Below, piece after piece: positions 11,096 through 31,696 of a DNA stretch of 64,000 bases. Both the position numbers and the translations under genes were made by a program. Positions within the stretch are counted from its first letter, which is position 1, and every line of letters begins with the position of its first letter. The stretch comes from Candidatus Saccharimonadota bacterium (GTDB lineage Bacteria > Patescibacteriota > Saccharimonadia > Saccharimonadales > Saccharimonadaceae): contig DAIDKE010000002.1 in NCBI GenBank assembly GCA_027450165.1, positions 62,001 through 126,000 of the forward strand. The letters run 5' to 3'. The notes under the pieces were generated by a model, which did no database searches, had not been told where the DNA came from, and saw nothing but the letters and a program-made list of their open reading frames with translations.

Positions 11096-12181
11096 TTAAT
11101 TGGCGATGCAGCGAACCGCATAACCCGTGAACTTATTGCTGTTGGCCGATGTATTGACACTCGTACTATAAAAGTACAAGCCATAGGCACTGCCCGTTCC
11201 ACTCTGCGTGGAGGACCAGTAGTAGCTTTGGCTTCCCTGGGCACCAAATCCGCTATACCAATAGCCACTGTACTGTGCAAGCCAAGTGCTGCGCAGGCCG
11301 TTGTCTGTACTTGTCAAACCACCGTTAATAGCCGTATTTAGAGTGGCGAATTCATTACTACTATTAGTCGGTAGACGCCAGCCAGCCGGACAAATAGAAA
11401 CAGTTGTATCTACTGCGGTTGAGTCCGATCCACTACAGGCGCCGTTCCCTGTCTGCACGCCATTAGCGGCACAAAAGTTGTACAGATAACCGTATTGGCC
11501 GGTACCTGTTGTTGAGGTTGAAGGAGGCGTCGGCTCAGTTGTGGGGTTGGAACCAGTTGGTATGTAATAATATGCGGTGGTGTTACTATATCCCGAACCA
11601 CCTCCGTTAGCTATGCTTTTAGTGTCTCCATAAGTATTTGTACCGCCGCCAGCATATGCTAAGTTGGTTAACATCCAACATTTACCATCGGCTAATTTTT
11701 GGACCCAATAAGTATGGCTGTCGCGAGCGTCAACGGCTCTTATTTCGCTAGTTGGACAATTAGCGCTAGTAACGGTCTGGATTGGGCTACCGTCTGCAAT
11801 AATAGCGGAGCACGCTCCTTGAGTTGGTATGTTATTGGAATTAGTTACAAAATAAGTCTGGGCACCGTTACTATTAGATAAGCAATAGGTGTCGGTCGTG
11901 GTGTTTACTGAATATGCAAAAGTATCGTTAGGACTAGAACTCACGCCCGCCACATCGATCGTGCTGGGCCAGCTAGAGTTATCAACGCGGTAGTTTCCGA
12001 TCTTAATAGCCGCTTGGGCTAGGTCGGCTTTTAATGAAGCTACCTTAGCGTTATTTGCAATGCCGTTGTAAACCAAGGTTGTAATAGCGGCTAAGATAGC
12101 GATCACAACAATGACGATTAAAAGCTCGACAAGTGTAAAACCCGGCTTTGGCATATGTTGTTTATGCGTAATTCCCACCAT
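11096..12181 (-). CDS. Prepilin-like protein with C-terminal FISUMP domain
   Basis: A type IV pilin-like surface protein of 361 residues. The class III leader ends at Gly14, followed by FTLVELL with Glu at +5 and one hydrophobic helix to about residue 38. The middle module (about 40-140) ends with DTYCL and GAC, two Cys that probably form a disulfide and recur in the prepilins at 26306 and 30644. The C-terminal part contains GKCWMLTNLAYAG, CPAGWRLPT, YYWSSTQ and GYAVRCIAN, the pattern of the FISUMP domain known from Fibrobacter surface proteins. Probably a minor pilin tip or adhesin. TATATT lies about 11 nt before the ATG. Confidence 0.85.
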   Translation of the reverse strand: MVGITHKQHMPKPGFTLVELLIVIVVIAILAAITTLVYNGIANNAKVASLKADLAQAAIKIGNYRVDNSSWPSTIDVAGVSSSPNDTFAYSVNTTTDTYCLSNSNGAQTYFVTNSNNIPTQGACSAIIADGSPIQTVTSANCPTSEIRAVDARDSHTYWVQKLADGKCWMLTNLAYAGGGTNTYGDTKSIANGGGSGYSNTTAYYYIPTGSNPTTEPTPPSTSTTGTGQYGYLYNFCAANGVQTGNGACSGSDSTAVDTTVSICPAGWRLPTNSSNEFATLNTAINGGLTSTDNGLRSTWLAQYSGYWYSGFGAQGSQSYYWSSTQSGTGSAYGLYFYSTSVNTSANSNKFTGYAVRCIAN

Positions 12182-12239
12182 AATTACGTCTTAATATAAG
12201 GCATAGGTAGCATAGAATCAATCTATGTTTATGTCGTAT

Positions 12240-12761
12240 CTACAAAGAAGCTTCAACAGCTGCCCAAGTAGCGTCTGGGTTGTCGATTGGGACGATAATC
12301 GTGACTTGGTCACCAATGTTAATACGGAAGTATGTTACGCTAGCTAGCAAAATTCGGTATTCGCGGCCGTTGGCTTCGACGTAATAGGCGCCATCGTGCT
12401 GTACTAATGTACCGATGATTTGCCTACGTTCGACAGGGCCGATTTGTTTGTAAATAAAGCTGCCATCGTCGCCGATAGTTAGCTTTAGGATATCACCTTC
12501 AACTAATTTAGACTTACTAGCGTAGTTGGCTGGCACAGGGTATTCTTTGCCGTCTGGTCCGGCCATTTTTTGGCCATCAAAGACGCCCTCGACAACCTTG
12601 CCGCCGGCCTCATCGATGTGGGCGCCAGCCTTTGGTGTAATGACATTGCCATCGTCACCAACGATGCTAATCAGCAGCTCTTTAGCTGCCGCTAAATTAG
12701 TCTCCGCTTCCTGAATGAGCGCGTGGAGACGCTTCACTTGTTTTTCTGGTAGCTCAGACAT
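12240..12761 (-). CDS. Conserved-looking hypothetical protein with N-terminal coiled coil
   Basis: 173 residues, acidic, soluble. Residues 5-35 form an amphipathic helix (KQVKRLHALIQEAETNLAAA), likely a coiled coil. The rest is beta-rich with two similar segments: one around DGKEYPVPANYASKSKLVEGD and one around NGREYRILLASVTYFRINIGDQ, both ending in a turn before a hydrophobic strand. I do not recognise the family. It has its own TTGACA-17-TATAAG promoter and stands alone between a prepilin and the L7/L12 region. Could be a small nucleic-acid-binding or ribosome-associated protein, but that is a guess. Confidence 0.7.
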   Translation of the reverse strand: MSELPEKQVKRLHALIQEAETNLAAAKELLISIVGDDGNVITPKAGAHIDEAGGKVVEGVFDGQKMAGPDGKEYPVPANYASKSKLVEGDILKLTIGDDGSFIYKQIGPVERRQIIGTLVQHDGAYYVEANGREYRILLASVTYFRINIGDQVTIIVPIDNPDATWAAVEASL

Positions 12762-12811
12762 GGTTTCTCGCAGTTCCTTATCTGTATGTGTTTTGAACTA
12801 ATATCACCTTA

Positions 12812-12840
12812 CTTATATCAACATGTGAAAAAAATGTCAA
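12812..12840 (-). promoter_or_regulatory. Sigma70-type promoter of the 12240-12761 gene
   Basis: On the minus strand TTGACA (complement of 12835-12840), a 17-bp spacer, then TATAAG (complement of 12812-12817). A second TTGACA-like hexamer lies about 11 bp further upstream. Confidence 0.7.
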
Positions 12841-12872
12841 TATTTGTCAAAAATCAAGCCTAAAGTTATACA

Positions 12873-13322
12873 CTATGCCGCCGATTCAAACCGCCCGATA
12901 CTGCTAAACGGTAAATACAGTTCTTGGCCGAAAACTATGTCTTGAGGGTCGGGATCAACGTATCTTGGAACTAAGACTGCACACAAATCATAGCCAGAAA
13001 AATCTATTGGTAAGCCGTCAATATTCTCAAGTATGACTAACTGCTGGATGGCTACGCGCTGTAACTGAGCCTCGACACGTACACCTTTATGGCTAGTCAC
13101 GTCGTCGGTCTCCAGTAAAACTCCGTGCTCAGCCTCAACAATTAAACGCGTGTGCTGCATTTTGGTTAGTTCGGGCATGCAGGTGTGAATTGCGCGAGCA
13201 GCAATCTGTCCTGCGTGTTCATCGTAATACTTTCCACCCATACTCTCATGTCGATAGAGTTCTTCGCGCACAATTTCGGAAATAATCTTTAGCTTTTCGT
13301 GATTTGGCGTAATCAGTGTCAT
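12873..13322 (-). CDS. Hypothetical protein
   Basis: 149 residues, no membrane segment. The N-terminal part is helical (HEKLKIISEIVREELYR), followed by an HAGQIAARAIHTCMPEL segment and a beta-rich C-terminal half with DLCAVLVPRYVDPDPQDIVFG. No family recognised. The start has a perfect AGGAGG Shine-Dalgarno 6 nt before the ATG. A TATAAC box about 30 nt upstream may serve as promoter. It lies between the hypothetical 12240 gene and rplL with its own signals, so co-transcription is not indicated. Confidence 0.65.
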   Translation of the reverse strand: MTLITPNHEKLKIISEIVREELYRHESMGGKYYDEHAGQIAARAIHTCMPELTKMQHTRLIVEAEHGVLLETDDVTSHKGVRVEAQLQRVAIQQLVILENIDGLPIDFSGYDLCAVLVPRYVDPDPQDIVFGQELYLPFSSIGRFESAA

Positions 13323-13448
13323 TTATGCCTCCTGTGTGTCAATCTGTTATACACTTATCGGTTTGATTTGTCACCTAAATCATATTCCCGTTTTTCCACA
13401 GCAATTTCAGAGATAAAGCTTAAAACGTTGTCAAAATTATCAGCAAAA

Positions 13449-13485
13449 CAAAACCGCCTCGCGGTTAAACGGGACGGTTTTCGAG
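13449..13485 (-). terminator. Rho-independent terminator after rplL
   Basis: On the minus strand an AAAACCG arm and a CGGTTTT arm enclose a 16-nt loop, followed by a T-rich tail (TTTTGTTTTG). It follows the rplL stop by about 30 nt. Confidence 0.7.
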
Positions 13486-13516
13486 TTAAACAATTTGACC
13501 TAAATTAAGCGTTAAC

Positions 13517-13897
13517 TTATTGCAGTTCGACAGTAGCGCCAGCTTCTTCAAGAGTTTTCTTGGCAGCTTCGGCTTCTTCTTTTGGAGCTTTTTCTTTAAC
13601 GGTAGCAGGCGCGCCGTCAACGATAGCTTTAGCCTCACCAAGGCCAAGACCGGTAATGTCTTTAACAGCCTTGATAACGGCGACTTTCTGAGCACCGGCG
13701 TCCTTTAGGACGATTGTGTATTCAGATTTAGCAGCTTCTTCTGGAGCGTCAGCACCAGCGGCGGCAGGACCGGCAACTGCAACAGCGGCAGCGGCTGGCT
13801 CAATGCCGTATTCTTCTTTTAGGATGTTCTTGAGGTCGTTGACTTCAAGAACGGTTAGACCGGTTAGGGTCTCTGCAAGTTTTTTCAAATCAGCCAT
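13517..13897 (-). CDS. rplL: 50S ribosomal protein L7/L12
   Basis: The stalk protein that recruits translational GTPases, 126 residues. N-terminal dimerisation helices ([20 protein letters not shown]), an Ala/Gly hinge (AAGADAPEE) and the C-terminal domain with [20 protein letters not shown] and [15 protein letters not shown]. The Shine-Dalgarno GAGAGG precedes the ATG. It is co-transcribed with rplJ, 30 bp upstream, under the L10-leader attenuator. No rpoBC follows; a terminator and unrelated genes come next. Confidence 0.97.
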
Positions 13898-13927
13898 GAC
13901 TTAAAATTCCTCTCTTATTCAAATTGA

Positions 13928-14452
13928 TTAATTGGTTGCTTTTGCCGAAACACCATCAAGCAGCGCGTGCAAGTTGCCCGAAAGCGCGTTGGTAACGTCG
14001 TGAACTGGTGATAGCAATTGAGCGATAACTTCCGCAATAAGCTGCGACTTGCTTGGCAAGCTCGCTAGAGCCTTAACTTCGTCGGCGGTCATAACTGAGC
14101 CATCGGCGGTAAAAGCACCGGCAAGGACAAGTGCGGGGTTGGTTTTTGCAAAAGTATCAAGTACTTTTGCTGGAGCAACCTCGTCGTCGGCGCTAATTGC
14201 GTAAAGCAGTTGACCGTTTAGGGCGCTAGTGTCGGTATCTTTGTAGGTAGCGTTGTCAGCCATCGCAACCCGCACAAGGCGGTTTTTGACGACTTTAATG
14301 ACGACACCTTCGGCGCGAGCGGCAGCACGTAGCTGTTGCAGGTCGGCCACAGATAGACCGTTGTAGCTAGCAAAAACGGTGTTTTTAGCGTTTACAAGAA
14401 GTTCGCTAAGTTCAGCAACCAAAGTGTTCTTTTTATCGCGACTAATAGCCAT
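13928..14452 (-). CDS. rplJ: 50S ribosomal protein L10
   Basis: 174 residues. Binds 23S rRNA and carries L7/L12 dimers on its C-terminal helix. Family motifs: the N-terminal SRDKKNTLVAELSELL helix, VFASYNGLSVADLQQLR and VVKNRLVRVAM, then LALVLAGAFT-like strands. It starts with an ATG 7 nt after AAGGAG. The about 190-nt leader carries an L10 leader RNA and an attenuator, so L10-L12 complex probably represses its own operon. Confidence 0.96.
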   Translation of the reverse strand: MAISRDKKNTLVAELSELLVNAKNTVFASYNGLSVADLQQLRAAARAEGVVIKVVKNRLVRVAMADNATYKDTDTSALNGQLLYAISADDEVAPAKVLDTFAKTNPALVLAGAFTADGSVMTADEVKALASLPSKSQLIAEVIAQLLSPVHDVTNALSGNLHALLDGVSAKATN

Positions 14453-14520
14453 AAAAATTCTCCTTAGTTGTTTTTAGGTCAAATTGTTAACGTTCGACAG
14501 GCAATGCGGCGGATCCAGTA

Positions 14521-14645
14521 AAACAAAAAGTCTTTGGTTCTCGCACTGCCAAAGACTACTAGAATGTATGTTTTGTTACATCATCCTCGGCGGTAGATTA
14601 AGTGTCGTTTATAAAACTCCACGGCCGCTGTCTTTGGTATGTCTG
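14521..14645 (-). ncRNA. L10 leader RNA with attenuator (rplJ-rplL)
   Basis: On the minus strand the transcript begins near 14645. The element contains AGACAGCGGCC (near 14632-14622) and CCGCCGAGGAUG (near 14593-14582), the two conserved strands of the L10-leader kink-turn fold known from Firmicutes. It is followed by arm AGUCUUUGG (14557-14549), an 11-nt loop and ACCAAAGACU (14538-14529), then UUUUUGUUU, a perfect intrinsic terminator. The first leader strand also begins ACCAAAGAC (14638-14630), so it can pair with the terminator's 5' arm as an antiterminator. L10(L12)n binding would favour termination (established for the family; here inferred). Confidence 0.85.
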
Positions 14646-14651
14646 GTCGAA

Positions 14652-14680
14652 ATTATACAGATTGTTGTTAAAAATGTCAA
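14652..14680 (-). promoter_or_regulatory. Strong sigma70 promoter of rplJ-rplL
   Basis: Consensus on both hexamers on the minus strand: TTGACA (complement of 14675-14680), 17-bp spacer, TATAAT (complement of 14652-14657). The start site would be near 14645, just before the L10 leader. Confidence 0.88.
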
Positions 14681-14786
14681 TGAAAAGAGGCTCGTGCCGC
14701 GGCAGGCCTATCGCCAAGTCGCCAGCAAGTTATTTCCTACCCGCATGAGTGCCCTGTACTTCTGCAGAAAGACGCATTATGACTCA

Positions 14787-14815
14787 TAAACCATAGACGT
14801 CGAAAGTATGGTTTA
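14787..14815. repeat. Inverted repeat upstream of the 14878 gene
   Basis: Perfect 9-bp arms TAAACCATA (14787-14795) and TATGGTTTA (14807-14815) with an 11-nt loop. It lies about 14 bp upstream of the presumed -35 region of the next gene, so it could be an operator or the remains of a terminator. The 70 bp on its left hold nothing I can name. Confidence 0.45.
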
Positions 14816-14828
14816 GCAATGGATAACC

Positions 14829-14857
14829 TGGACGAAAGACTGAGAATATGCTAAAAT
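14829..14857 (+). promoter_or_regulatory. Promoter of the 14878 gene
   Basis: TGGACG (14829-14834), 17-bp spacer, extended -10 TGCTAAAAT (14849-14857). An in-frame ATG at 14848 overlaps this box and cannot be the translated start, which moves the start to 14878. Confidence 0.6.
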
Positions 14858-14877
14858 TACAAGGTTGTAATTGCATT

Positions 14878-15909
14878 ATGAATCGAATAGATGAACCACC
14901 AAAACCTTTGAACCGACAAGTTCCCGAATCTGCCTCAAGGCAACCCGAAAGTTTAAAGCATAGCCCAAATTACTCACTTGTATTGGCCGATCTGGCGCTA
15001 ATGCTTAAGAAGCGCGAGAAGGTTGACCTAGATTACGTCCCCGACCCTATTTTTACGGATCAAATTGAGCTTGATGTTGCTCCCTACGATGGTAATATCC
15101 AGTCTCCGACACCTTTTGATCCAGACGGTATTGTGATTAACGGAGCCCCATACATGCTTCACGCCGAGAGTTGGATGATGAAGCGTTTTAACAATGGTCT
15201 GATTAGGTCGGGTGATGCTGGTATTGAGCTGCCGTTCGATACCCTAACGGCAGTGCAAGACGAGATAATTTCGCAACACCACATTCGCTGCGAGCAAAAT
15301 CAAAACGCTTATGGGCGTTTGATGCGCGTAGTTGCCCAGGATCCTGATCGATTTTGCGACGAGCATCGTACGGCCTTGTGGGCGATACGCAGCGCTATCG
15401 CTGGTCCGCACAGCCGTGCCCAATTGTTGTTTGACTTTCCGGAAATCAAAGGTATTGAGGATATGAAAGACACGGCCGTATTTGACCTTGAGGGCTATGG
15501 CCGACGCCGCAAGCAATACATAAGCCGTCTTTTTTCTATGAATATTGTAGATGGGTGGCGCGTTGTCCTCAGAAACGACGGTGACCACAATTACCAATTT
15601 AAGTCCGTCGATCCGCGTGGAATTGTGTTAGTAAAAGGCGTTATAGCGGATATTTATAATGAAAAAGATCAGGTTATTGAAGTTGTTGAACGGCGCAGCT
15701 ACAGTTTATTACCTGCCAGTTTAAGTTCTGGCGGTAAGTTTGATAACATGGTGCGCGGTATTGATGGCCAGTTGTATAATCAGCAGCTCATTGCTGGTTC
15801 GGTTTATTTTCGTACCGCCGAATCGGTACTACAAGACGACGACCCAGAGGACATGAGCAGTATGCTGGTGGTTGATAACCCGCTTGGCGTCGGTCCAACT
15901 TTATCTTAG
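14878..15909 (+). CDS. Hypothetical protein
   Basis: 343 residues, soluble, no recognised family. The N-terminal 40 residues are Pro/Ser-rich and probably disordered. The body is mixed: an acidic stretch with DLDYVPDPIFTDQIELDV, a helical region around DPDRFCDEHRTALWAIRSAI, then beta-rich segments with DGWRVVLRNDGDHNYQF. The C-terminus is again acidic and Ser-rich. It faces tmk tail to tail with 8 bp between the stops. Context gives no function. Confidence 0.65.
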   Translation: MNRIDEPPKPLNRQVPESASRQPESLKHSPNYSLVLADLALMLKKREKVDLDYVPDPIFTDQIELDVAPYDGNIQSPTPFDPDGIVINGAPYMLHAESWMMKRFNNGLIRSGDAGIELPFDTLTAVQDEIISQHHIRCEQNQNAYGRLMRVVAQDPDRFCDEHRTALWAIRSAIAGPHSRAQLLFDFPEIKGIEDMKDTAVFDLEGYGRRRKQYISRLFSMNIVDGWRVVLRNDGDHNYQFKSVDPRGIVLVKGVIADIYNEKDQVIEVVERRSYSLLPASLSSGGKFDNMVRGIDGQLYNQQLIAGSVYFRTAESVLQDDDPEDMSSMLVVDNPLGVGPTLS

Positions 15910-15917
15910 ATACTTGA

Positions 15918-16598
15918 TCAGGCTGCAAGGGTAAATAGGCCGCGGACTTTACGCCACACTCGGTGCTCGACATCGACCGGTGCGCCATCGGCGCTAGTCA
16001 GTCGGATGCCGTTGTCGTGAGCGAAGCGAATGTAACCGTTTTGCATATTTTGCTGGAATTCTTCACCCATAGACTCAAAGGTATCTTTCTGCATGCCGTC
16101 GGCCGAGCGACCAATCATACGTCGGCGCCGTTCGCGCTCGTTTTTCATGGCTAGAATACAGATATAATCTGGCTGCATGTAAAGTTCACCGACATGTTCG
16201 CGGGTATATTCACGAATTTTATTAAGGTCAACGCCTTCGCCGTAGCCCTGGTAGGCCATGGTCGAAACCCAACTGCGAGCAGTTATTACTGGCCGTCCGG
16301 CTTCAAGTGCCGGATTGATGGCCTCGTTCCATATTGATTCTCTAGCCTCGGTGAACCACTCAACGTTCTGCCAAGGGGTGCGTGGAATTGATTTATCTTT
16401 AATGCGCCGCCGCAGTTCGTTGGCGCGCGGTGTGCCACCCGGCTCTTGGACTGGTTCCATTCGGTTGGTCTCGTCGTTAAAAACCAGTAACGGATCAAAA
16501 CCTAGTTTCTGAAGACGCTCCGTCAGCCGAATAGCCTGGAGCGACTTACCCGTACCATCGCTGCCTTCAATAACTATATATCTGCCACGTTCGGTCAT
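15918..16598 (-). CDS. tmk: Thymidylate kinase
   Basis: Phosphorylates dTMP to dTDP. The 226-residue protein has the P-loop GSDGTGKS at about residues 13-20, EPGGTPRANELRR, and DYICILAM, with a LID-like Arg-rich segment NERERRRRMIGR. It is somewhat longer than the usual 205-215 residues because of an insertion around VFNDETNRMEPVQ. The stop is TGA, evidence that UGA is not reassigned. The ATG overlaps the last base of dcd, so the two form an operon for dTTP supply. Confidence 0.88.
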   Translation of the reverse strand: MTERGRYIVIEGSDGTGKSLQAIRLTERLQKLGFDPLLVFNDETNRMEPVQEPGGTPRANELRRRIKDKSIPRTPWQNVEWFTEARESIWNEAINPALEAGRPVITARSWVSTMAYQGYGEGVDLNKIREYTREHVGELYMQPDYICILAMKNERERRRRMIGRSADGMQKDTFESMGEEFQQNMQNGYIRFAHDNGIRLTSADGAPVDVEHRVWRKVRGLFTLAA

Positions 16599-17302
16599 TA
16601 CTGCAGTTCCCTTTTAAGACCAGGAATATCAATTGGTAAATGCCGTCCATCCTTGTAGGCGCGTGGCAACATCAATTCTGGTTTCCAGTTTTTGACTAAT
16701 TCATCAAGGTTGGTGCTGGAATTATATTTACCGCTAAGGCTTTCGTAGCTGCCGCGAACTTCACCGGTGTGAAAGAATACGATTTGGGCGATTCGTTCGC
16801 CGACTGGCAGAACGATACTGTGTCGCTGGTTCAAATTGTAAACTTCAAGTGTCCAGCGATTGATATAGCCTGGGTCGCCCCAGCCGGCATCAAAACAAAC
16901 CGCCACACCATTGCGACCCCAAGTGCTGCGCGATTGCATGCTGGTGGTACCTGGCGGCAAGATGCCGATAAATTCGTGAGTATGTGCCAAAATTCGCTCG
17001 CCTGGTTCAAGTACGATCACTGGGTGATCGAGCGGAATATTTTCTGGTGGCTTATTGCCGGTTTCCTGGCACCATTCTTGTAGCGACTGAGCTTTTTGCG
17101 GCTCACCAAAATAGCGTTCAACATCTAGCTTGTCGAACGGACTATAGAAAGTTGTGGAGTTTTTGCGATCAGTCCGGAAATACCAGTTGCCTAGCGTGAC
17201 GTCGATACTACTGCCATTGATATGTTCAGGCTGATAAGGATGAAAGACAATATGACCGTCTTTGATAGCCTGTTCAATCTCGATGTTACTGTAAACTCCC
17301 AC
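16598..17302 (-). CDS. dcd: dCTP deaminase / dUTPase-superfamily protein
   Basis: Deaminates dCTP to dUTP, possibly also hydrolysing dUTP to dUMP, the substrate of thymidylate synthase. The 234-residue trimeric-fold protein has GSSIDVTLGNWYF, SRSTWGRNGV and the active-site strand RWTLEVYN with the Glu used by dCTP deaminases. The segment FDAGWGDPGY replaces the more usual HxTAxxIDPGW, so mono- versus bifunctional activity cannot be decided. At 234 residues it is longer than E. coli Dcd (193). It overlaps tmk by one base. A TATACT/TAGCAT-like AT-rich region lies upstream, shared with divergent folA. Confidence 0.82.
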   Translation of the reverse strand: MGVYSNIEIEQAIKDGHIVFHPYQPEHINGSSIDVTLGNWYFRTDRKNSTTFYSPFDKLDVERYFGEPQKAQSLQEWCQETGNKPPENIPLDHPVIVLEPGERILAHTHEFIGILPPGTTSMQSRSTWGRNGVAVCFDAGWGDPGYINRWTLEVYNLNQRHSIVLPVGERIAQIVFFHTGEVRGSYESLSGKYNSSTNLDELVKNWKPELMLPRAYKDGRHLPIDIPGLKRELQ

Positions 17303-17356
17303 AACTTCTCCCTTTTTGACGTGTTATCTAGATTGTAGCATGATAGTATACAAGGT

Positions 17357-17878
17357 ATGAAAACAATTGTTGTCGCCTATGACAAAAATCGGGCGATTGG
17401 ACGCAGAGGTGAATTACCATGGCAAGGTCAGCTACCGGCTGATATGCGCCATTTTAGCGATGTTACGAAAAATCAATCGGTAATCATGGGTCGCCTCACT
17501 TACGAATCCTTACCTAGGCGTTATCGCCCTTTGCCGGAGCGTCAAAACATAGTTTTGTCGATGTCAGCGCGAGTGATTGACGGTGTTCTTATCGCTAGAA
17601 CTCTAGACGAGGCCTACGAAATGGCCGACCATACTCCAATAGTGATTGGCGGTGGGCGGGTTTACGAACAAGCGTTACCAACGGTTGACCGTATCTTTGC
17701 GACAGAAATTGACGCAGTATCGCCGGGTGCGGACACGTTTTTTCCAGAACTCAACCCCGATGAGTGGCGCAGGTCAAATATAGCCATGTTTGATGCCGAT
17801 GAAAACAATAAATACAATTATGCGTTTGTGACGTATTTGCGCCGTCACGTGCACGATAATCAGACGGACGTTCAATAA
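17357..17878 (+). CDS. folA: Dihydrofolate reductase
   Basis: Regenerates tetrahydrofolate used up by thymidylate synthase. The 173-residue protein has VVAYDKNRAIGRRGELPW near the N-terminus, the DMRHF helix with the substrate Asp, VIMGRLTYESLP, and the NADPH-binding IGGGRVYEQALP. The ATG lies within about 5 nt of a TATACA box, so the mRNA is probably leaderless. It converges with the GC-rich thyA; the thyA terminator hairpin starts 5 bp after the folA stop and may also end folA transcripts. Base composition is native-like, unlike thyA. Confidence 0.95.
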   Translation: MKTIVVAYDKNRAIGRRGELPWQGQLPADMRHFSDVTKNQSVIMGRLTYESLPRRYRPLPERQNIVLSMSARVIDGVLIARTLDEAYEMADHTPIVIGGGRVYEQALPTVDRIFATEIDAVSPGADTFFPELNPDEWRRSNIAMFDADENNKYNYAFVTYLRRHVHDNQTDVQ

Positions 17879-17883
17879 AACAA

Positions 17884-17951
17884 CCCCGTGCGGGTCGGGG
17901 CATCCGTCGCAACTTGTGGTCGCTTCGGAGCATCATCCGACCCGCACGGGG
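17884..17951 (-). terminator. Large GC-rich terminator hairpin of thyA
   Basis: 15-bp perfect arms CCCCGTGCGGGTCGG (17884-17898) and its complement (17937-17951) enclose a 38-nt insert that can itself fold. In thyA orientation it is followed by TTGTTTTATT. Confidence 0.8.
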
Positions 17952-17984
17952 GCTTGCGGTGAATCAGAGCTTGCCGCTCCTGGT

Positions 17985-18803
17985 CTACACCGCGATCGGT
18001 GCCTTGATGGCCGGCCACGGGTTATAGTCGACGATCTCGACGTCCTCGTACGTGTAGCCGAAGATCGACGGCGCCTTGTGCAGCACCAGCTTCGGGAATG
18101 GACGTGGCTCACGCGACAGCTGCAGCTCCACCTGCTCGAAGTGGTTGTTGTAGATGTGCGTGTCACCACCGATCCAGATGAAGTCGCCGACCTCGAGTCC
18201 GACCTGCTGCGCGACCATGTGGGTCAGCAGCGAGTAGGACGCGATGTTGAACGGCACACCCAGGAGGGTGTCGCAGCTGCGCTGGTACATCTGGCAGCTG
18301 AGCTTGCCGTTGGCGACGTAGAACTGGAACAGCAGGTGGCATGGCGCCAGCGCCATCTTGTCGATTTCGGCGACGTTCCAGGCGCTGACGATGTGCCGGC
18401 GCGAGTCGGGGTCCTCCTTGAGGTCCTTCATCACCCTGGCGATCTGGTCGATGTGCTTGCCGTCGGGCGTCGGCCACGAGCGCCACTGCACACCGTAAAC
18501 CGGACCGAGCTCGCCGTTCTCGTCGGCCCACTCGTCCCAGATGGTCACGCCGTTCTGCTGCAGCCAGGCCACGTTCGAGTCGCCGCGGAGGAACCACAAC
18601 AGCTCGTAGATGACCGACTTCAGGTGAATCTTCTTGGTCGTGATCAGTGGGAAGCCCTTGCTCAGGTCGTAGCGCAGTCTCGCTCCGAACAGGCTCTTGG
18701 TGCCGGTACCGGTACGGTCCGACTTCGACGTGCCCTCCTCCATGACTGTGCGCAGCATAACCTCGTACTGACTGTCGATGACAACACTCGCCTCGTTGCT
18801 CAT
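17985..18803 (-). CDS. thyA: Thymidylate synthase (GC-rich, probably transferred)
   Basis: Makes dTMP from dUMP with methylene-tetrahydrofolate. The 272-residue protein is complete: [13 protein letters not shown] (phosphate-binding Arg30), WFLRGDSN, catalytic Cys155 in [30 protein letters not shown] and HIYNNH. The segment [20 protein letters not shown] and its mostly G/C third codon positions resemble actinobacterial ThyA (from memory). Start chosen at the ATG at 18803, 6 nt after GAGGAGAG; an in-frame upstream ATG lacks such a site. The gene is markedly more GC-rich than folA and rplA around it and has its own promoter and terminator. Confidence 0.96.
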
Positions 18804-18855
18804 GTCTCTCCTCAGGAACTGGGGTAAACTCTGAATGTTCACCACCCTACTTCGC

Positions 18856-18861
18856 ATTATA
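18856..18861 (-). promoter_or_regulatory. Probable -10 box of thyA
   Basis: TATAAT on the minus strand about 50 nt before the thyA ATG. No convincing -35 at 16-18 bp. The leader between box and ATG is moderately GC-rich and ends in a strong Shine-Dalgarno. Confidence 0.5.
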
Positions 18862-18905
18862 TGGCAAATTTATTCAAATTTATGCAAATTTCTGTTGTAA
18901 AAACA

Positions 18906-18930: not shown

Positions 18931-18950
18931 TTGATGATCAACTGAGTTGA

Positions 18951-24109: not shown

Positions 24110-24118
24110 GCCTCTTTT
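24091..24118. terminator. Bidirectional terminator, M16-like gene / nusG
   Basis: 10-bp arms AAAAGAGGCC and GGCCTCTTTT with an 8-nt loop; the stem overlaps the stop of the plus-strand gene. T-run on the plus side, A-run giving U's on the minus side. Confidence 0.85.
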
Positions 24119-24134
24119 TTGAAGTGAACAAAAG

Positions 24135-24683
24135 CTAGACTTTTTTAACCTGCAAAGCGTCAAGCTCAACCGATGTGTCGCGGCCAAACATGCTGACCAT
24201 GACCTTGACCTTACCCTTTTGGTTGTCGATTTCGGAAACCGCGCCATCGAAGCCCTTGAATGGACCATCGGTGATACTGACGACTTCGCCGACAGTCATG
24301 TCGATGTTGTGCTTAGGATCTTCGACGCCCATGCGCTTCTTAATCTTGGCAATTTCAGCGTCAGAAACAGGGGTTGGCTGGGTGCTGGTGCCAACAAAAC
24401 CGGTTACGCCAGGCGTGTTGCGGACAATGTACCAGGTCTCATCGGTTAGCTTCATTTCAACCAACGCGTAGCCCTGGAATATCTTCTTTTCAACAACTTT
24501 ACGTTTGCCGTTTTTGATTTCAATTTGCTTCTCTTTTGGTACCATCACGTCGAAGATTTTGTCAGCCATGTCGACGGCGTTAATACGCTGGCGAATGCTT
24601 TCGGCGACTTTCTCTTCGTAACCGCTGTAGGTATGGATTGCATACCATTGGCGTGATGAGTCGTATCGGTTCTTTTGGGCCAT
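24135..24683 (-). CDS. nusG: Transcription antitermination factor NusG
   Basis: 182 residues. The NGN domain begins RQWYAIHTYSGYEEKVAESI and ends RNTPGVTGFVG; the KOW domain has VGEVVSITDGPFKGFDGAVSEID. It binds RNA polymerase and couples it to Rho or the ribosome. It follows secE by 14 bp, the classical secE-nusG pair. rplK, its usual next gene, lies about 1.4 kb away beyond two inserted plus-strand genes. Confidence 0.97.
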   Translation of the reverse strand: MAQKNRYDSSRQWYAIHTYSGYEEKVAESIRQRINAVDMADKIFDVMVPKEKQIEIKNGKRKVVEKKIFQGYALVEMKLTDETWYIVRNTPGVTGFVGTSTQPTPVSDAEIAKIKKRMGVEDPKHNIDMTVGEVVSITDGPFKGFDGAVSEIDNQKGKVKVMVSMFGRDTSVELDALQVKKV

Positions 24684-24697
24684 CTGTCTTTCCTTTT

Positions 24698-25042
24698 TTA
24701 CTTCAAAATTAATGAAAATAACTCTTTAAATAATGCATCAAGCAGCAAGATCACTAGCACAAAAAAGGCCGTGAAAATCAATACCGCAGCTGTTAAACCC
24801 CAAGTGGCGCGGCGGTTTGGCCAACGCACAGCGCGCAGTTCAACCCAGGCACCCTTGAAATATCCGCCAATTGCCGCGAACATCCGAATCAGCCAGAAGC
24901 GCTTTTCTTCTTTGGCTGGCTTGGTTTTTTTGGTAGTTGTGGTTTTGCTGACGCTTTTAATTTCAACCGCCTCTGATGGTTTACTATCAGATGCTTTAAT
25001 GCGCGTCACTTTTGTCTGATTGTCTTTCGGGTTTTTAGCCAC
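24698..25042 (-). CDS. secE: Protein translocase subunit SecE
   Basis: 114 residues. A charged Lys/Thr-rich N-terminal tail of about 55 residues is followed by FKGAWVELRAVRWPNRRATW, the conserved amphipathic helix before the single membrane segment (about 80-105). It holds the SecYEG translocon together. Start is GTG at 25042 behind GGGAG. The leader has a hairpin (AGTCTGC/GCAGACT, 25064-25081), which may attenuate transcription. Confidence 0.94.
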   Translation of the reverse strand: MAKNPKDNQTKVTRIKASDSKPSEAVEIKSVSKTTTTKKTKPAKEEKRFWLIRMFAAIGGYFKGAWVELRAVRWPNRRATWGLTAAVLIFTAFFVLVILLLDALFKELFSLILK

Positions 25043-25089
25043 TTTTTGCTCCCAAATTTAAAAGTCTGCCCTAGCAGACTGTCAAGTAG

Positions 25090-25118
25090 ATTGTAGCGCC
25101 TAAAGAGAAAAACGTCAA
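25090..25118 (-). promoter_or_regulatory. Promoter of secE-nusG
   Basis: Minus strand TTGACG (complement of 25113-25118), 17-bp spacer, TACAAT (complement of 25090-25095). It lies back to back with the TATAGT box (25124-25129) of the divergent glycosyltransferase. Confidence 0.78.
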
Positions 25119-25137
25119 TATGTTATAGTGTTAGTAG

Positions 25138-26283
25138 ATGCTAGAGCTTATCGTATACGGACTCGACGGGCTTCTGTTGGTTGTGGCGGTCTATTTTAGC
25201 TATCAACTTAGGCGGGCTTTTCGGTTGTTTCGCATGACAACTCCTTTGCCAGATATAAAACGTGATCAGTTGCCAACCGTCAGCGTCTGTATTCCGGCTC
25301 GTAACGAAAAGTTGGTTATGACCGAATGTCTCGAGAAAGTCCTGGCTAGCAGCTATCCCAAGCTCGAAATAATAGTCCTAGACGATAATTCAGCCGATGA
25401 TACCTCGGCGCTGATCAAAGCTTTTGCTAGCGAGGGTGTGCGCTTTGTTGAGAGCCGAGATCTGCCTGGTGACTGGATTGGTAAGAATCGCGCTTTACAA
25501 AAGCTGCTCGAAGCTTCAAGCGGCGACTATGTTCTATTTATGGACGTCGATACGCGCCTGGCGCCCGATACGATCCAAAAATTAGTTAGTTATACGCTTG
25601 CTGATGGTGCCGATATGGTTTCGGTCTTGCCGCGCCGTGAAGACGGCTGGCGTTGGAGCGCTATCTTTGGAACGTTACGCTATTTTTGGGAACTGGTCAT
25701 GCATAGTTCGCTAGCCCCGGCGGCGGCTGGTAATGCCTGGATGATCAAACGCTCGACGCTTATGGACATGAACGGCCTCAATGATTTTCGGGCGGTGGTT
25801 CAGCCAGAATCACAGCTAGCCGCTCGGTTAATGCCGGCTGGTAAATACCGCTTTTTGATTGGGTCGCCCGAACTTGGCTTATCGCACGAAAAGAAGTGGC
25901 GTTCGCAGATGCACACCAGTATACGTTTGTTGTACCCGCTCTTGGGCGGTCGAATTTGGTCGGCTGCGGCCGCGTTAATTGGTCTGTTGATTTTATTATT
26001 ACCGTTTGTTGAAGTTGTCGACGGTTTGTGGGCTGGCTGGACTGTTATTCAAACCGTAGCCGCCGGGATTCTGGTGATCTATATGCTTATCTACGGCTCA
26101 TTCTTGAAAAAGAACCGTGCACATAGCTGGTTTATTGGCGCCCTGTTTTGGCCACTGGTTGTTATGCAAGAAATCGTGCTGCTGATTACAAGCGTTGAGC
26201 GCCATATACGCAAGCGCGTTACCTGGAAAGGCCGTCGCTTACAGCCGGTTAATACTCGCATCGGCCGGCGGTTACGTCTATAA
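25138..26283 (+). CDS. Membrane-anchored GT2 glycosyltransferase (CrtQ-like)
   Basis: 381 residues: an N-terminal membrane segment, a GT-A catalytic domain with VSVCIPARNEK, LDDNSADDTS and the DxD-type FMDVDTRLAP, then two or three C-terminal membrane segments. The domain LPGDWIGKNRALQ is typical of the 4,4'-diaponeurosporenoate glycosyltransferase/hopene-associated GT2 group. The acceptor is probably a lipid or surface polymer. ATG lies 8 nt after TATAGT, so leaderless. Followed 22 bp later by the NHL prepilin, which has its own -10 box. Confidence 0.82.
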   Translation: MLELIVYGLDGLLLVVAVYFSYQLRRAFRLFRMTTPLPDIKRDQLPTVSVCIPARNEKLVMTECLEKVLASSYPKLEIIVLDDNSADDTSALIKAFASEGVRFVESRDLPGDWIGKNRALQKLLEASSGDYVLFMDVDTRLAPDTIQKLVSYTLADGADMVSVLPRREDGWRWSAIFGTLRYFWELVMHSSLAPAAAGNAWMIKRSTLMDMNGLNDFRAVVQPESQLAARLMPAGKYRFLIGSPELGLSHEKKWRSQMHTSIRLLYPLLGGRIWSAAAALIGLLILLLPFVEVVDGLWAGWTVIQTVAAGILVIYMLIYGSFLKKNRAHSWFIGALFWPLVVMQEIVLLITSVERHIRKRVTWKGRRLQPVNTRIGRRLRL

Positions 26284-26292
26284 AACTTATGC

Positions 26293-26298
26293 TATACT
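26293..26298 (+). promoter_or_regulatory. Extended -10 box of the NHL prepilin
   Basis: TGCTATACT with the hexamer at 26293-26298, 7 nt before the ATG at 26306. It overlaps the end of the preceding gene region. Typical of the leaderless starts of this window. Confidence 0.6.
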
Positions 26299-26305
26299 AA
26301 TTGCA

Positions 26306-27640
26306 ATGATCAGTAAAAAATACCCACGATCAAGCGGATTCACGTTGGTTGAACTGTTAATAGTTATCGTGGTTATCGTGATCTTAACGACCATCGCTGC
26401 TGTCTCTTACAATACGGTCGTCAACGACAGTCACTCATCGGTCGCAAAGTCCAATTTGACCGACGTTTACAGCCAACTCGGAACCTACGCCCTTCATAAT
26501 GGCGGTTATCCGTCGACGCTTGAAGCTGCCGGCATCAAAATGGACCCGGACACTAGCTATTACTACATACCCAACAGCGATAATAGCGGTTATTGCCTGG
26601 CCGACGACAACGGTGGTAATCAGTTCTATTTAACGAACACTCTTAACGTACCGCGTGCCGGCGACTGTCCGCTAATGGTGTCGACGTGGGCCGGCTCAAC
26701 TTCAGGCTCGGCCGACGGCCAGGGCACCTCGGCGCAGTTTAACGAGCCAACTAGCATCGTACTGGCGCCGGACGGTGGCTTATATGTGGCCGATTACAGT
26801 AATAACGAGATTCGCAAGATTTCACCAACTGGCTATGTATCTACTTTTGCCGGTTCGACAACGGCTGGTTACGCTGATGGTCAGGGCACGGCGGCAACCT
26901 TTGATTTACCCGGCGGTTTGGCCATCGATTCAGCAGGTAATCTGTACGTCGCCGATCAGGCCTATAGTTTGATTCGTAAGATTACGCCGAGCGGTAATGT
27001 GACGACGATCGCCGGTTGGGGCTATGGTTATGCCGATGGCAATGGCAAAAACGCTCGCTTTGCTGATCCTTGGGACGTGGCCGTTGACCCTAACGGCAAC
27101 CTTTACGTCGCAGATACTTATAATGAAGTGATTCGAAAAATCGACACCAGTGGCAATGTTACGACATTTGCCGGTATAGCTGGCACGGCTGGGTATGTCG
27201 ATGGTCCGGCGGCCTCTGCAGAGTTTAACTATCCCGCAGGTGTGGCGGTGGCCGCCGACGGCTCAATCTATGTTGCCGACCAAGATAACAACCGAATTCG
27301 AAAAATCGATACCAGCGGCAATGTTACAACTTTCGCCGGTTCGGGTGCTAAAAGCACTGTCGACGGTGTTGGTACGGCGGCCTCGTTTGCCAGCCCGCAC
27401 AGCATATCGATTGACGCTGCCGGTAACATGTATGTTGGTGACGAGTACAGCCACAGAGTGCGCAAGATTACTCCAAGCGGGGTTGTCGCGACCTTGGCTG
27501 GCACAACCGAAGGCTACCTGGACGGTCCTTCGACAATAGCACAGTTTGATCACCCGCTAGGCGTCGTCGCCACCCCAAGTGGTATTGTCTACGTTGTTGA
27601 GCGCGCCAATAACCGAGTGCGCGTCATTCAGTATCAATAG
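26306..27640 (+). CDS. Prepilin-like protein with C-terminal NHL-repeat beta-propeller
   Basis: 444 residues. Prepilin leader to Gly11, then FTLVELL with Glu at +5 and a hydrophobic helix. A middle module ends with GYCL and AGDC, the same Cys pair as in the other two prepilins. From about residue 132 six NHL-type blades follow, each with a variant of GLYVADYSNNEIRKI and TFAGSTTAGYADGQGTAATF. Such propellers bind proteins or glycans. The six-blade ring would sit at the end of a pilin stalk. Start at ATG 26306, 7 nt after TGCTATACT; a longer upstream frame overlaps the previous gene and lacks signals. Confidence 0.9.
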   Translation: MISKKYPRSSGFTLVELLIVIVVIVILTTIAAVSYNTVVNDSHSSVAKSNLTDVYSQLGTYALHNGGYPSTLEAAGIKMDPDTSYYYIPNSDNSGYCLADDNGGNQFYLTNTLNVPRAGDCPLMVSTWAGSTSGSADGQGTSAQFNEPTSIVLAPDGGLYVADYSNNEIRKISPTGYVSTFAGSTTAGYADGQGTAATFDLPGGLAIDSAGNLYVADQAYSLIRKITPSGNVTTIAGWGYGYADGNGKNARFADPWDVAVDPNGNLYVADTYNEVIRKIDTSGNVTTFAGIAGTAGYVDGPAASAEFNYPAGVAVAADGSIYVADQDNNRIRKIDTSGNVTTFAGSGAKSTVDGVGTAASFASPHSISIDAAGNMYVGDEYSHRVRKITPSGVVATLAGTTEGYLDGPSTIAQFDHPLGVVATPSGIVYVVERANNRVRVIQYQ

Positions 27641-27646
27641 ATTATA

Positions 27647-29260
27647 TTATTGCTTGTTGTTGACCGGCAGTTTAAACCAAAAGGTTGAACCGTGATTTAG
27701 ACGACTGGTGAATTCAATATTGGTACCAAGTTTGTGTGACAATTTCTTGGCGACATATAAGCCCAAACCGGTGCCGCTGGTTTCGCGGGTGCGGTAATCT
27801 TCGCTGCGGTAAAACTTCTGAAAGACTTTTTGCTGGTCGCTTTTGCTAATGCCAATACCAGTGTCTTTGACTGAAAAAGTAATAATTCCCCCGCTTTGTT
27901 CGGCGCTCAAGGTAACGCTGCCGCTAGGCGTGTATTTCAAGCTGTTGGTAATAAAATTCTGTAGTAATTCTTCCAGGTAAAGGCGGCTGGCATTGACAGA
28001 GCCCAGATGGGCGCTGGTGTTGATGTTGAAGTGCAGTTTTTTGGCCTTGGCTTCTTTGGCGTAGGTTTCGTACATGTTGTGGATCAGCTCGCGCACATCA
28101 ATCAACTCTGGGGCATCAGCCACACCGCGCTCGGCCCGCGACAAAGTGCTTAGGTCGTTAACCATCTTGGCTAAATAGACCACTTGGTCGTGAGCGGCAT
28201 CGACGGTTTCGGTCATGGTTGCCTTGGTGACTTTTGAACCCTTCTTCATCATGAGCTGAACGTTTGACAAACTACCTTCCATAATCGTAATTGGTGTGCG
28301 CAGCTCGTGGCTGACCACGCTTATAAATTCGTCGCGCTCTTCTTCAAGGCTTTTTGCCTTGGTAACGTCGCGCATAATCAAAATATAACCCTCTTGAGAA
28401 TCATTGCCGCTACGAATTGGCGAATAAGTAATTTCAAGGCGGATCTGCTCACCATCGGCAAAAGTATACTCCAGGTCGTCACGCGTATGGGCGCTATGTG
28501 CTTCGGTTAATTCGCGCAAAATTGACACCTTGGCATCATTTTGATCGGTCAGCGGCAAAATCTCGTCGATTTTGCGACCATTGATGTCGGTGTTGGTATC
28601 GAGCAAGTTTAAACTAGCGGCATTGTATAGCTTAATCACACCATGGCGGTCGGTGCTGATAATAGCATCGGCCAGGTTGTTGATAATCGTGACCATTCGG
28701 TCGTGCTGCAGTGTCTCACTAGCCACTGGCCGCGACGCTCGGCGCTGTTTAACCTCGGTCCCAATGCCAATGGTGATAATTCCGCTTAACAGCACGGCAA
28801 CTAAGGTCGACAGGTCATAAGAAGCGAAGGTTGGGTAAAACCGCGACCACAGCAAGATATCGATAAAGACGATCGTCGTAAACCAGACGGCGCTTAAATA
28901 AACGCCGGTGCGACCAAAGTAGACGTAAGCGGCCACAATTAGGGCAATCCAAAAGATTGCAAACGGCGATGGAATACCAATCACGTAAAACAAATAAGCA
29001 GTCGCCAACAGATGATACGCGATAAGTCTAAGGGCTGAATCTAACCGCGTACGACTGACATACAAAAATTGCACCACAGCAACCAAAATCCACCAAAAGC
29101 CAAGTGCCAAAAACCCGGTCATCGGAATGGTACGGTCGCTAGGTATTAACCCGGTTTCGATTAACATGCCATAAGTAATAAGGATAATCGGAATTATTAA
29201 CCCGGCAATACGAACAATTCGGGCTAATTTTGGCGTGTAAGTAGGGCCACCCTTATACAT
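27647..29260 (-). CDS. Membrane PAS sensor histidine kinase
   Basis: 537 residues. Five or six N-terminal membrane segments (about 1-170), a PAS domain (about 190-300, IINNLADAIISTDRHGVI), HisKA with the phosphoacceptor His in VVSHELRTPITI, and HATPase_c with NSLKYTPSG, VKDTGIGISKSD and SGTGLGLYVAKKL. The regulator partner is not adjacent; it may be the response regulator at 1-673 or one elsewhere. TATAAT lies 10 nt before the ATG. Its stop is only 6 bp from the convergent NHL prepilin stop, so prepilin control is conceivable but unsupported. Confidence 0.93.
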   Translation of the reverse strand: MYKGGPTYTPKLARIVRIAGLIIPIILITYGMLIETGLIPSDRTIPMTGFLALGFWWILVAVVQFLYVSRTRLDSALRLIAYHLLATAYLFYVIGIPSPFAIFWIALIVAAYVYFGRTGVYLSAVWFTTIVFIDILLWSRFYPTFASYDLSTLVAVLLSGIITIGIGTEVKQRRASRPVASETLQHDRMVTIINNLADAIISTDRHGVIKLYNAASLNLLDTNTDINGRKIDEILPLTDQNDAKVSILRELTEAHSAHTRDDLEYTFADGEQIRLEITYSPIRSGNDSQEGYILIMRDVTKAKSLEEERDEFISVVSHELRTPITIMEGSLSNVQLMMKKGSKVTKATMTETVDAAHDQVVYLAKMVNDLSTLSRAERGVADAPELIDVRELIHNMYETYAKEAKAKKLHFNINTSAHLGSVNASRLYLEELLQNFITNSLKYTPSGSVTLSAEQSGGIITFSVKDTGIGISKSDQQKVFQKFYRSEDYRTRETSGTGLGLYVAKKLSHKLGTNIEFTSRLNHGSTFWFKLPVNNKQ

Positions 29261-29293
29261 CTTATGTTTAATTATACATGTTTGGGTTTGAAA

Positions 29294-29986
29294 CTAAATA
29301 GTTGGTGTTTCTGATTTTAGGGTGCGGCGATGAGCTCGGTACTCCGGGTCACCAATTGCCACGATATCCCAGAATGACTGCGAGTGGTTCATTTCGCGGG
29401 TGTGCGCCAGCTCGTGGATGATCACATAGTCGATTAACTCAAATGGTAACTTCATCAAAGCGATATTTAGGCTAATGGTGCCGTTCGAACTACAGCTCCC
29501 CCAGCGGCCGCTAGCGTGCGAAAAACGAACTTTGTCGTAGTGCATGCCCAACTTGTGCGCTAAAAACGCTAGGCGTTTAGGCAAATAACTCTTTGCCTCA
29601 ACCCTTAAGGCTGCAATCACGGCATCGCGAACCTGGCGCGACACATCGTCGTCTTGCAAGGTTTTTTGCGCCGGTAGAGCCACCGTAATGTGCTGGCCGC
29701 GTGTCGTAACCTTCAAGCTGCCACTGGTCGGTGACACCAGTAAACTATGGCTTTTGCCGATTTGCATACCATTTTCGTAGCTAACTTGTGGCGTTGCCTG
29801 GTGCAATAGCTGGCGCAGCTCTTGGCGATTATTTTTGACCAATCGTTTTACTAAAAAAGTCGGCGCATAAAGCGGCAGCGAGGCTCGCAGGGTGCCGTCT
29901 GGCGCCACGCGCAACCGAACCTGTGAGGCTTTGGCGCTGCGACGGATAGTGATTTTGCCAAATTCTTCATCGTTGATGATTGGCAT
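29294..29986 (-). CDS. YgjP-like (M48/DUF45) metallopeptidase
   Basis: 230 residues. The zinc motif HELAH lies in YVIIHELAHTREMNHSQSFW near residue 190, with WGSCSSNGTISLN ahead of it, exactly the DUF45/YgjP pattern. The N-terminal half is a beta domain (RRSAKASQVRLRVAPDG). The role in bacteria is poorly known; homologues accompany type I restriction genes or stand alone. Start at ATG 29986 with GGAG upstream, 16 bp after the kinase gene's stop, so probably one operon. Confidence 0.88.
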   Translation of the reverse strand: MPIINDEEFGKITIRRSAKASQVRLRVAPDGTLRASLPLYAPTFLVKRLVKNNRQELRQLLHQATPQVSYENGMQIGKSHSLLVSPTSGSLKVTTRGQHITVALPAQKTLQDDDVSRQVRDAVIAALRVEAKSYLPKRLAFLAHKLGMHYDKVRFSHASGRWGSCSSNGTISLNIALMKLPFELIDYVIIHELAHTREMNHSQSFWDIVAIGDPEYRAHRRTLKSETPTI

Positions 29987-30002
29987 GTAATTAAGCTCCG
30001 AT

Positions 30003-30590
30003 TTATCGAATAATAATATTGCGGTTCGGCCGCGGAGGAATGGCGGCGTGTGCAGCCGCCTCGGCGTGTTCACCGGCTAGGCGCTTCAAGACAATCTTTA
30101 ATTGGCTGGCAAAAGTGTGCTTACCGCTAATAACAACCACCTTTTCACTGGCGGTCGGCACGCGAAAACGCGACAACAAACTCTCATATTCGTCACTGCT
30201 AAGCGATCGGTCTTTGTTAAGTTTAATAGCCCGGCGCTTGGCCTCTACAGGGTCGGTTTGGACCCAAACAAACAACGATTCATAGCCCGCTTCTTTGGCT
30301 GCTTTAGCTAATTCAAGTCTTTCTGGCCTGGTGTCAGACGCGCCGTCAAAAACGACCGTTTGGCCAGTTTTTAAAAGCTGGTCTAACAAATAACGCGACA
30401 CACCATTGGCTGCCTCAATTTGCGGTCGGCCAGCTTGAGTACCTGGAAAAATTTGTTCCAAAATTGCGTCACGGTTAACTAGTGGTGCTTTAAAAACCTC
30501 TGCAAATTGGGCAGCAAACTGGCTTTTACCAGCTCCAGAGATTCCAACCATAACAATCAAATGCGGTCGAGATAGGCTAAGCGGCTTCAT
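30003..30590 (-). CDS. P-loop kinase of the AAA/zeta-toxin-like group
   Basis: 195 residues. Walker A VGISGAGKSQF near residue 18-25, VFDGASDTRPER and an Arg/Lys-rich LID (EAKRRAIKLNKDR). Such predicted kinases phosphorylate nucleotides, polynucleotide 5' ends or small molecules. Zeta toxins share the fold, but no antitoxin is seen. Start set at ATG 30590 because the extended -10 box TGCTATACT ends 8 nt before it. An upstream ATG would overlap the box. Followed by the YgjP-like peptidase. Confidence 0.75.
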   Translation of the reverse strand: MKPLSLSRPHLIVMVGISGAGKSQFAAQFAEVFKAPLVNRDAILEQIFPGTQAGRPQIEAANGVSRYLLDQLLKTGQTVVFDGASDTRPERLELAKAAKEAGYESLFVWVQTDPVEAKRRAIKLNKDRSLSSDEYESLLSRFRVPTASEKVVVISGKHTFASQLKIVLKRLAGEHAEAAAHAAIPPRPNRNIIIR

Positions 30591-30643
30591 ATAAGCTAAG
30601 TATAGCAAATTTGTGCGCAAATAACACCGTAAGCGCTAATAAC

Positions 30644-31696
30644 TTAACTGGCCGGTGGAATTGCAATTTGAATCGCGGTGCCATTGGTGGTCTGAGGGTT
30701 TGGGTACGTTACTGTCATTGCTTTTGATGTACCGGTACTCGCCTGCTCATCGTAGCCGATGGTAATCGTTTGCAGCTTGGTGCTGCCGTATTGCGGAATA
30801 TAAAACCAAGGTGTAACACCGCTCAGTGAAGTGTAGCTCGTTTCATCGGCTATGGTTCGTTCAGTGCTAATCGACAAAACTAGTGATTTAGCGACTGTTA
30901 CATTGATCGTAGGTGTTAACGTCGTTGTCGGGGTGGCATTATTGGCGCGGTCGCCGAAACTACCGATTGTCCAGCTACTGATGGCCGCTCCATTGCTACC
31001 CCAAAACAGAGCCATGTTTGTCGTACCGGCGCCACCAGAACCAGCAGCGCCAAATAGTTGTTGGTCGGTGTCGCTGGCTTGTTTGATTTTGGCATAAACC
31101 ACGGTTTGCATTGTGTTGGTGGTGTGGCGTGGAACAATATTGGTCCAACCGGATGGCACCGACGCCATATCGGCGTTGTTGGTGTAGCTTATGACGGCAA
31201 TAATCCAGTCACCGGTTGGAATTGACCCAATTGAAGCAACAAACGAATTTCCCGAAACAGCATTCGATAAATCGGTATAACCAGCAAGGGTTGGTGAGCC
31301 GCTAATCATATTGTCTCCAGGGCAGACTCCGCTCTGAACATTGCCGCTGTCGGTTGATATGTGGTAGGTGTCGTCGGACTTATCACTGGTGGCCGTTAAA
31401 CAGTAGCTACCTGTGGTGCTATCTAACGAATATTGGAACGATACGCCCGGGCTAGGTGTGAGGCCGGCCGTGGCTAAACTATCTGGGTACGAACTGCCGT
31501 CGATTTTAAGTTTTTCGAGTAACTGCGCCGAGCTTGACAGGTCGTTTTGCATAACACTATCGGCGGCTCGTTTTGCAACGCCATTATAACTAACGATCGT
31601 TATGACAGCTAATATGGCAATAACGACGATAACGATCAGCAGCTCAACCAAAGTAAAACCAACCGAAGACCTGCGATGTGCTCGAGTCGTGATCAT
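30644..31696 (-). CDS. Prepilin-like protein with beta-sandwich C-terminal head
   Basis: 350 residues. Prepilin leader to Gly13, FTLVELL with Glu at +5, hydrophobic helix, then the Cys-pair module (GSYCL, SGVC) shared with the other two prepilins. The C-terminal 200 residues are Ser/Thr/Gly-rich and beta-predicted, with VPSGWTNIVPR and MALFWGSNGAAISSW, reminiscent of beta-sandwich modules in phage fibres and cell-wall proteins. No FISUMP or NHL motifs. Probably a third tip variant. An AT-rich TATATACT region precedes the ATG. Confidence 0.82.
   Translation of the reverse strand: MITTRAHRRSSVGFTLVELLIVIVVIAILAVITIVSYNGVAKRAADSVMQNDLSSSAQLLEKLKIDGSSYPDSLATAGLTPSPGVSFQYSLDSTTGSYCLTATSDKSDDTYHISTDSGNVQSGVCPGDNMISGSPTLAGYTDLSNAVSGNSFVASIGSIPTGDWIIAVISYTNNADMASVPSGWTNIVPRHTTNTMQTVVYAKIKQASDTDQQLFGAAGSGGAGTTNMALFWGSNGAAISSWTIGSFGDRANNATPTTTLTPTINVTVAKSLVLSISTERTIADETSYTSLSGVTPWFYIPQYGSTKLQTITIGYDEQASTGTSKAMTVTYPNPQTTNGTAIQIAIPPAS

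Follow-up and report, generated by a model that had tools for sequence, protein, structure and literature searches.

Three prepilins share a segment and differ in everything that follows it

Three genes in a 64,000-nucleotide stretch of DNA (referred to here as the window) from the 794-kb genome of a Candidatus Saccharibacteria bacterium encode prepilins that resemble each other in their N-terminal parts, while their C-terminal domains (heads) look entirely different. This raises the question of what the common part is, and why one kind of pilin should carry such different heads. All three reading frames are intact (Table 1). The prepilin motif PF07963 was found above its cut-off in each of the proteins (E 4e-7, 4e-7 and 6e-6), as was TIGR02532, and thus all three possess a prepilin leader with GFxxxE and a hydrophobic helix.

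Since any two pilins may resemble each other in the helix, it was left out when the segment of about 90 residues behind it was compared by Smith-Waterman alignment against 1000 shuffles. The z values were 23 for the FISUMP and NHL proteins, 21 for FISUMP and the third protein, and 14 for NHL and the third protein. These values, together with the columns invariant in all three proteins (Y, N, P, AG, P, Y, YCL and GxC), indicate a likeness that exceeds that of a generic pilin helix. The preliminary description, which had proposed a leader and a segment ending in YCL...GxC as the common part and unrelated heads behind it, was therefore right in both respects: past the second Cys the three proteins are mutually unrelated, and the third head has no match in Pfam or NCBIfam. 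Up to E 1, Pfam gave no match to the C-terminal propeller of PilY1 (PF05567) in any of the three window proteins.

Table 1. Positions of the modular prepilins, their parts and a promoter element in the window.
Feature	Position	Strand	Basis
Modular prepilin with FISUMP head, 361 aa	11096..12181	-	ORF; PF07963 and PF09603/TIGR02145
Its pilin module, G14 to Cys124 (pair Cys100-Cys124)	11810..12142	-	Alignment; AF2
FISUMP head	11099..11809	-	TIGR02145, E 7e-19
Modular prepilin with NHL beta-propeller head, 444 aa	26306..27640	+	ORF; PF07963 and PF01436
Its pilin module, G11 to Cys121 (pair Cys97-Cys121)	26336..26668	+	Alignment
NHL propeller head, six matched NHL stretches	26669..27637	+	PF01436, E 1e-41
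Modular prepilin with third head, 350 aa	30644..31696	-	ORF; PF07963
Its pilin module, G13 to Cys125 (pair Cys99-Cys125)	31322..31660	-	AF2; Foldseek
Third head, with homology to portions of minor tail proteins and phosphodiesterases of Microbacterium/Clavibacter phages	30647..31321	-	tblastn, best E 1e-12; phrog_30808
Extended -10 promoter element TATGCTATACT, just 5' of the NHL pilin start	26288..26298	+	Pattern search and upstream comparison

The common segment is an entire pilin domain of the small PilA4 type

A profile of the segment, built from eleven members in the genome, was searched against the PDB and matched Thermus thermophilus PilA4 (6xxd) with E 1.4e-6. The AF2 model of the third protein has a helix at residues 16-67 and strands at 85-92, 97-104 and 110-114, with pLDDT 95-98 across residues 21-120; that of the FISUMP protein likewise has a helix at 16-67, followed by three strands, and most of its module exceeds pLDDT 90. 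Foldseek with the third protein's module placed 6xxd PilA4 at rank 1. Taken together, the profile match, the models and the Foldseek result identify the segment as a small but entire type IV pilin domain like that of PilA4, and not as a new element. The name "stalk", given to it earlier, is thus misleading, as this is the globular pilin domain itself. The structure prediction suggested at that time resolved the module and left the heads, with pLDDT mostly below 50, unresolved.

PilA4, the nearest relative of the module in both solved fold and sequence, bears no head, whereas most copies of the module described here do. There are also headless members, which end at the second Cys (L016 and L155 in the genus of the window genome, and the more distant L245-L247 in Microbacteriaceae), and this implies that heads are joined just past the presumed disulfide. 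A separate 284-aa pilin of the same genome (L001, C2:1587) matches the module profile at both of its ends, as if about 120 residues had been inserted within the pilin domain.

It could be asked whether these proteins belong, as minor pilins, to a pilus for DNA uptake (competence), with the small domain binding DNA as ComP does and the heads being mere accessories. The module does match PF16732 (ComP_DUS), with E 4e-4 to 0.08, but the best score of 21.6 bits falls below the Pfam cut-off of 27.3, a structural pilin (PilA4) is matched better, and the wealth of sugar-binding-type heads would be left without explanation. We thus regard a competence function as very unlikely.

The module is multiplied in the genome and carries a large repertoire of heads

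Three members had been noted at first, all in the window; the genome holds 13 copies of the module among about 29 prepilins (28 N_methyl matches). Two of them have FISUMP heads (L011, L018) and three have NHL heads (L010, L006, L008); the others are the third window protein (L017) and L002, L007, L012, L014, L016, L022 and L164. In L022 (L032; C2:38461 onward), which has a LamG head, an in-frame TAA occurs just past the hydrophobic helix, probably reflecting a decaying copy or a sequencing error. L164 (893-2623, minus strand) consists of the module and two tandem sandwich-like domains, with no recognisable prepilin leader or helix. Because of this stop codon and this missing leader, some copies have to be considered non-functional.

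A congeneric sister genome has a set of copies resembling that of the window genome. In a sample of the class, 59 of 393 genomes had module matches at E <= 1e-12, and all 59 belong to the window genome's family; TM7i, another member of this family, has 8 copies. Among Microbacteriaceae, 26 of 200 genomes gave a match at 1e-6, only two of them a strong one. Type IV pilus (T4P) ATPases are encoded in the window genome, and the modular pilins would presumably become part of a type IV pilus, either within it or at its tip.

Collecting the members, as had been recommended earlier, gave 158 distinct ones, 151 of which have the Cys pair. Grouped by BLAST, the 148 heads that are 60 aa or longer form 33 clusters, or about 32 after a profile comparison in which many singletons were poorly comparable. 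Pfam families found in these heads were CBM_4_9 (23 heads, jelly-roll-like), LamG (20), FISUMP (12), NHL (10), FGE-sulfatase (8), RCC1 (7), Lcl_C (5) and PA14 (2), with single representatives of F5/8C and fibrinogen-C. They are not ordinary single-copy pilin domains. The families to which they belong suggest that the heads may bind ligands directly. An adhesive role of the FISUMP and NHL heads is hypothetical, and FGE-like heads could be enzymes.

Three large prepilins of the same genome (L013, L020 and L021, 50-57% identical) have a second, different carrier, to which FGE-sulfatase-like domains are attached in repeats; relatives have a head of this type on the Cys-pair carrier as well. The heads of L164, L002 and the third window protein may or may not have one fold in common: L002 and L164 are weakly related (E 9e-5), and the window head, at only E 0.02, was not merged with them by profiles.

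Heads are exchanged between carriers, and copies come and go within the genus

In the tree of the module, three supported sister pairs carry different heads, namely L008 (NHL) with L002 (sandwich; support 97/92), L006 (NHL) with L217 (FGE; 99/90), and L164 with L229 (RCC1; 95/90). The three NHL pilins of the window genome are found at three separate positions. Seven head types mapped on the tree of all members require 37 changes where six would be sufficient, a count to be read in view of only 96 columns and many unresolved forks. The sister modules with different heads show that heads have been exchanged between carriers, and agree with the earlier idea of a modular set in which one module displays exchangeable binding-type heads.

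Within the genus, copies are also gained and lost, and some decay. The sister genome has no FISUMP gene between dnaX and a 173-aa gene, with the left flank 81% identical up to the junction. The NHL gene is present at the equivalent position, its leader helix being broken by a deletion or frameshift. This NHL pilin (L153, C21) has lost most of the helix and has a shorter propeller, with a head of 214 aa vs 322. In other genera, a search covering about 1.5 kb per side in a subset of genomes found no carrier pilin at the dnaX locus or at two flanking loci with searched neighbours.

Neither of two known sources of variation was found. A diversity-generating retroelement was rejected, there being no PF00078 (reverse transcriptase) match in the genome, as was phase variation, since the stretches upstream of the pilins contain no homopolymer of 7 or more. 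A special promoter common to the pilins was discarded too, because the conserved extended -10 precedes other window genes and is not pilin-specific. This element, TRTGCTATANT, lies just 5' of several unrelated genes (e.g., 26288-26298, 37273-37283 and 25119-25129) and occurs 14 times in the window vs 6.6 expected from shuffles; it looks like the general promoter of this organism, one with very short leaders.

Two classes of heads are related to tail proteins of actinobacterial phages

Phage matches of the heads are to be read as a direction and not as a statistic, since the phage records are interrelated, not independent, and the collection is rich in actinophages: for the jelly-roll head of L012, 79 of 79 phage records were from actinobacterial hosts (70 from Microbacterium), mostly minor tail proteins among the matches listed; for a jelly-roll head of another genome, 84 of 89; and for the third window head, 14 of 15 (Microbacterium and Clavibacter). 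For the L164 head, the matches were two minor tail proteins from Rhodococcus phages. Used as comparisons, the LamG, RCC1, NHL and FISUMP heads gave phage matches from mixed or unrelated hosts. The pilins have jelly-roll, third-head or L164-type domains in common with minor tail proteins from phages of Microbacterium, Arthrobacter, Streptomyces, Clavibacter and Rhodococcus (e.g., FuzzBuster gp42 and Leaf gp66); the latter are tail components without a pilin module, unlike the carrier-borne heads. Of three such phage genes examined, two are located close 3' of the tape measure gene. At the level of sequence, the jelly-roll and third heads are homologous to regions of actinophage minor tail proteins, which suggests that pilins and phages address a similar target on the host surface.

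Among the relatives of the third head in phages, some sit within phosphodiesterase or purple acid phosphatase genes. This, along with the existence of FGE-sulfatase-like heads, might suggest that the heads are not adhesins but enzymes (such as FGE-like proteins or propeller hydrolases) tethered to a pilus or pseudopilus and processing polymers of the host surface. However, the part common to the phage genes may be a binding region beside the catalytic one, given that minor tail proteins contain this domain too, and the majority of heads match folds that bind without catalysing (CBM, LamG, F5/8C, PA14 and propellers). Tethered enzymes therefore seem an unlikely answer for the family.

Another scenario is that the heads vary under phage pressure, allowing escape from phages that use the pilus as a receptor, rather than by host choice. 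The high diversity and turnover of the heads and their homology to phage tail domains would fit such a scenario. The tail homologues, however, are found on phages of Actinobacteria and not on known phages of Saccharibacteria, and escape would favour point variation over the grafting of whole known binding folds, which makes this scenario highly improbable in our opinion.

Genes with the same carrier and head occur in Actinobacteria

Microbacterium schleiferi, M. sorbitolivorans and a further member of Microbacteriaceae (G603) have chromosomal genes in which the carrier is followed by a jelly-roll head with the same C-terminal motif, and Nesterenkonia muleiensis has the carrier with an RCC1 head (L099). 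The latter gene is located directly 3' of a short gene resembling the N-terminal part of a tyrosine recombinase. Between the G603 carrier and a Saccharibacterial one the identity is 71%, and the Microbacteriaceae sequences are placed among the Saccharibacterial ones in the tree, although without starred support; this identity and placement imply a cross-phylum transfer, which may have occurred in either direction. A plasmid route was dismissed, as no plasmid with such a gene was found; only a jelly-roll head match was present on two Curtobacterium plasmids.

Leucobacter belongs to Microbacteriaceae. TM7i depends on its T4P for adhesion to Leucobacter, its host (PMC11452946). We would propose, rather tentatively and as somewhat less than an even chance, that a common pool of receptor-binding domains supplies both the Saccharibacteria of this family and the phages infecting their actinobacterial hosts, that exchangeable heads on a standard pilin socket set the host range, and that Microbacteriaceae acquired whole socket-plus-head genes across phyla.

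Relation to known modular pilins, and a possible role in host recognition

No description of the arrangement had been known at first, but it is not undescribed. Modular type IV pilins were reported in 2021, with 264 architectures, FISUMP (IPR011871) and LamG (PF13385) among the commonest and one Saccharibacterial example (PMC8179133); some of their heads are thus the same as here. The prototypes, PilB (vWA) and PilC (lectin) of Streptococcus sanguinis (PMC8179133, PMC9934059), likewise carry a bulky module of non-pilin type, grafted onto the C-terminal end of a small pilin module. The three window proteins, in which a leader, a predicted pilin domain and an extra C-terminal module were found, are of this known kind. 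S. sanguinis, however, has two modular minor pilins with different modules, whereas here one Cys-paired carrier occurs in 13 copies in 0.79 Mb, and the head exchange, actinophage-tail-like heads and Microbacteriaceae relatives also distinguish this family from PilB and PilC.

Saccharibacteria, too, are known to have minor pilins that end in a jelly-roll or propeller domain: Nanosynbacter lyticus TM7x has PilX1 (jelly roll) and PilX2 (RCC1 propeller), the latter needed for normal host binding (PMC12206443). As described, they differ in being two proteins, encoded in T4P loci and without a predicted PilD signal peptide (PMC12206443); in the class sample, the 59 genomes with strong matches to our carrier all belong to a single family. 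By analogy, the role of PilX2 supports an adhesin function.

We consider it likely that the proteins described here are multi-copy modular type IV minor pilins serving as interchangeable, presumably pilus-displayed adhesins for actinobacterial hosts. Prepilin peptidase would cleave the prepilins, and the helix would pack them into the type IV pilus, probably at its tip. The disulfide-closed pilin domain would then act as a neutral carrier, and the heads might bind sugars or proteins on the actinobacterial cell surface. By swapping and multiplying heads on one carrier, the epibiont could change or broaden what its pili grip.

In the open-access literature, we found no description of a within-genome expansion on one carrier, of supported head exchange on it, of two head classes linked to actinophage tails, or of carrier-plus-jelly-roll genes shared with Microbacteriaceae, and these features are new as far as we could find. 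For host recognition by ultrasmall Saccharibacteria, pilins with one carrier and many heads provide concrete candidate recognition proteins. The overlap of two head classes with actinophage tails and Microbacteriaceae pilins suggests hosts to test, and as a cultivated relative, TM7i (grown with Leucobacter), has the family, the idea is directly testable.
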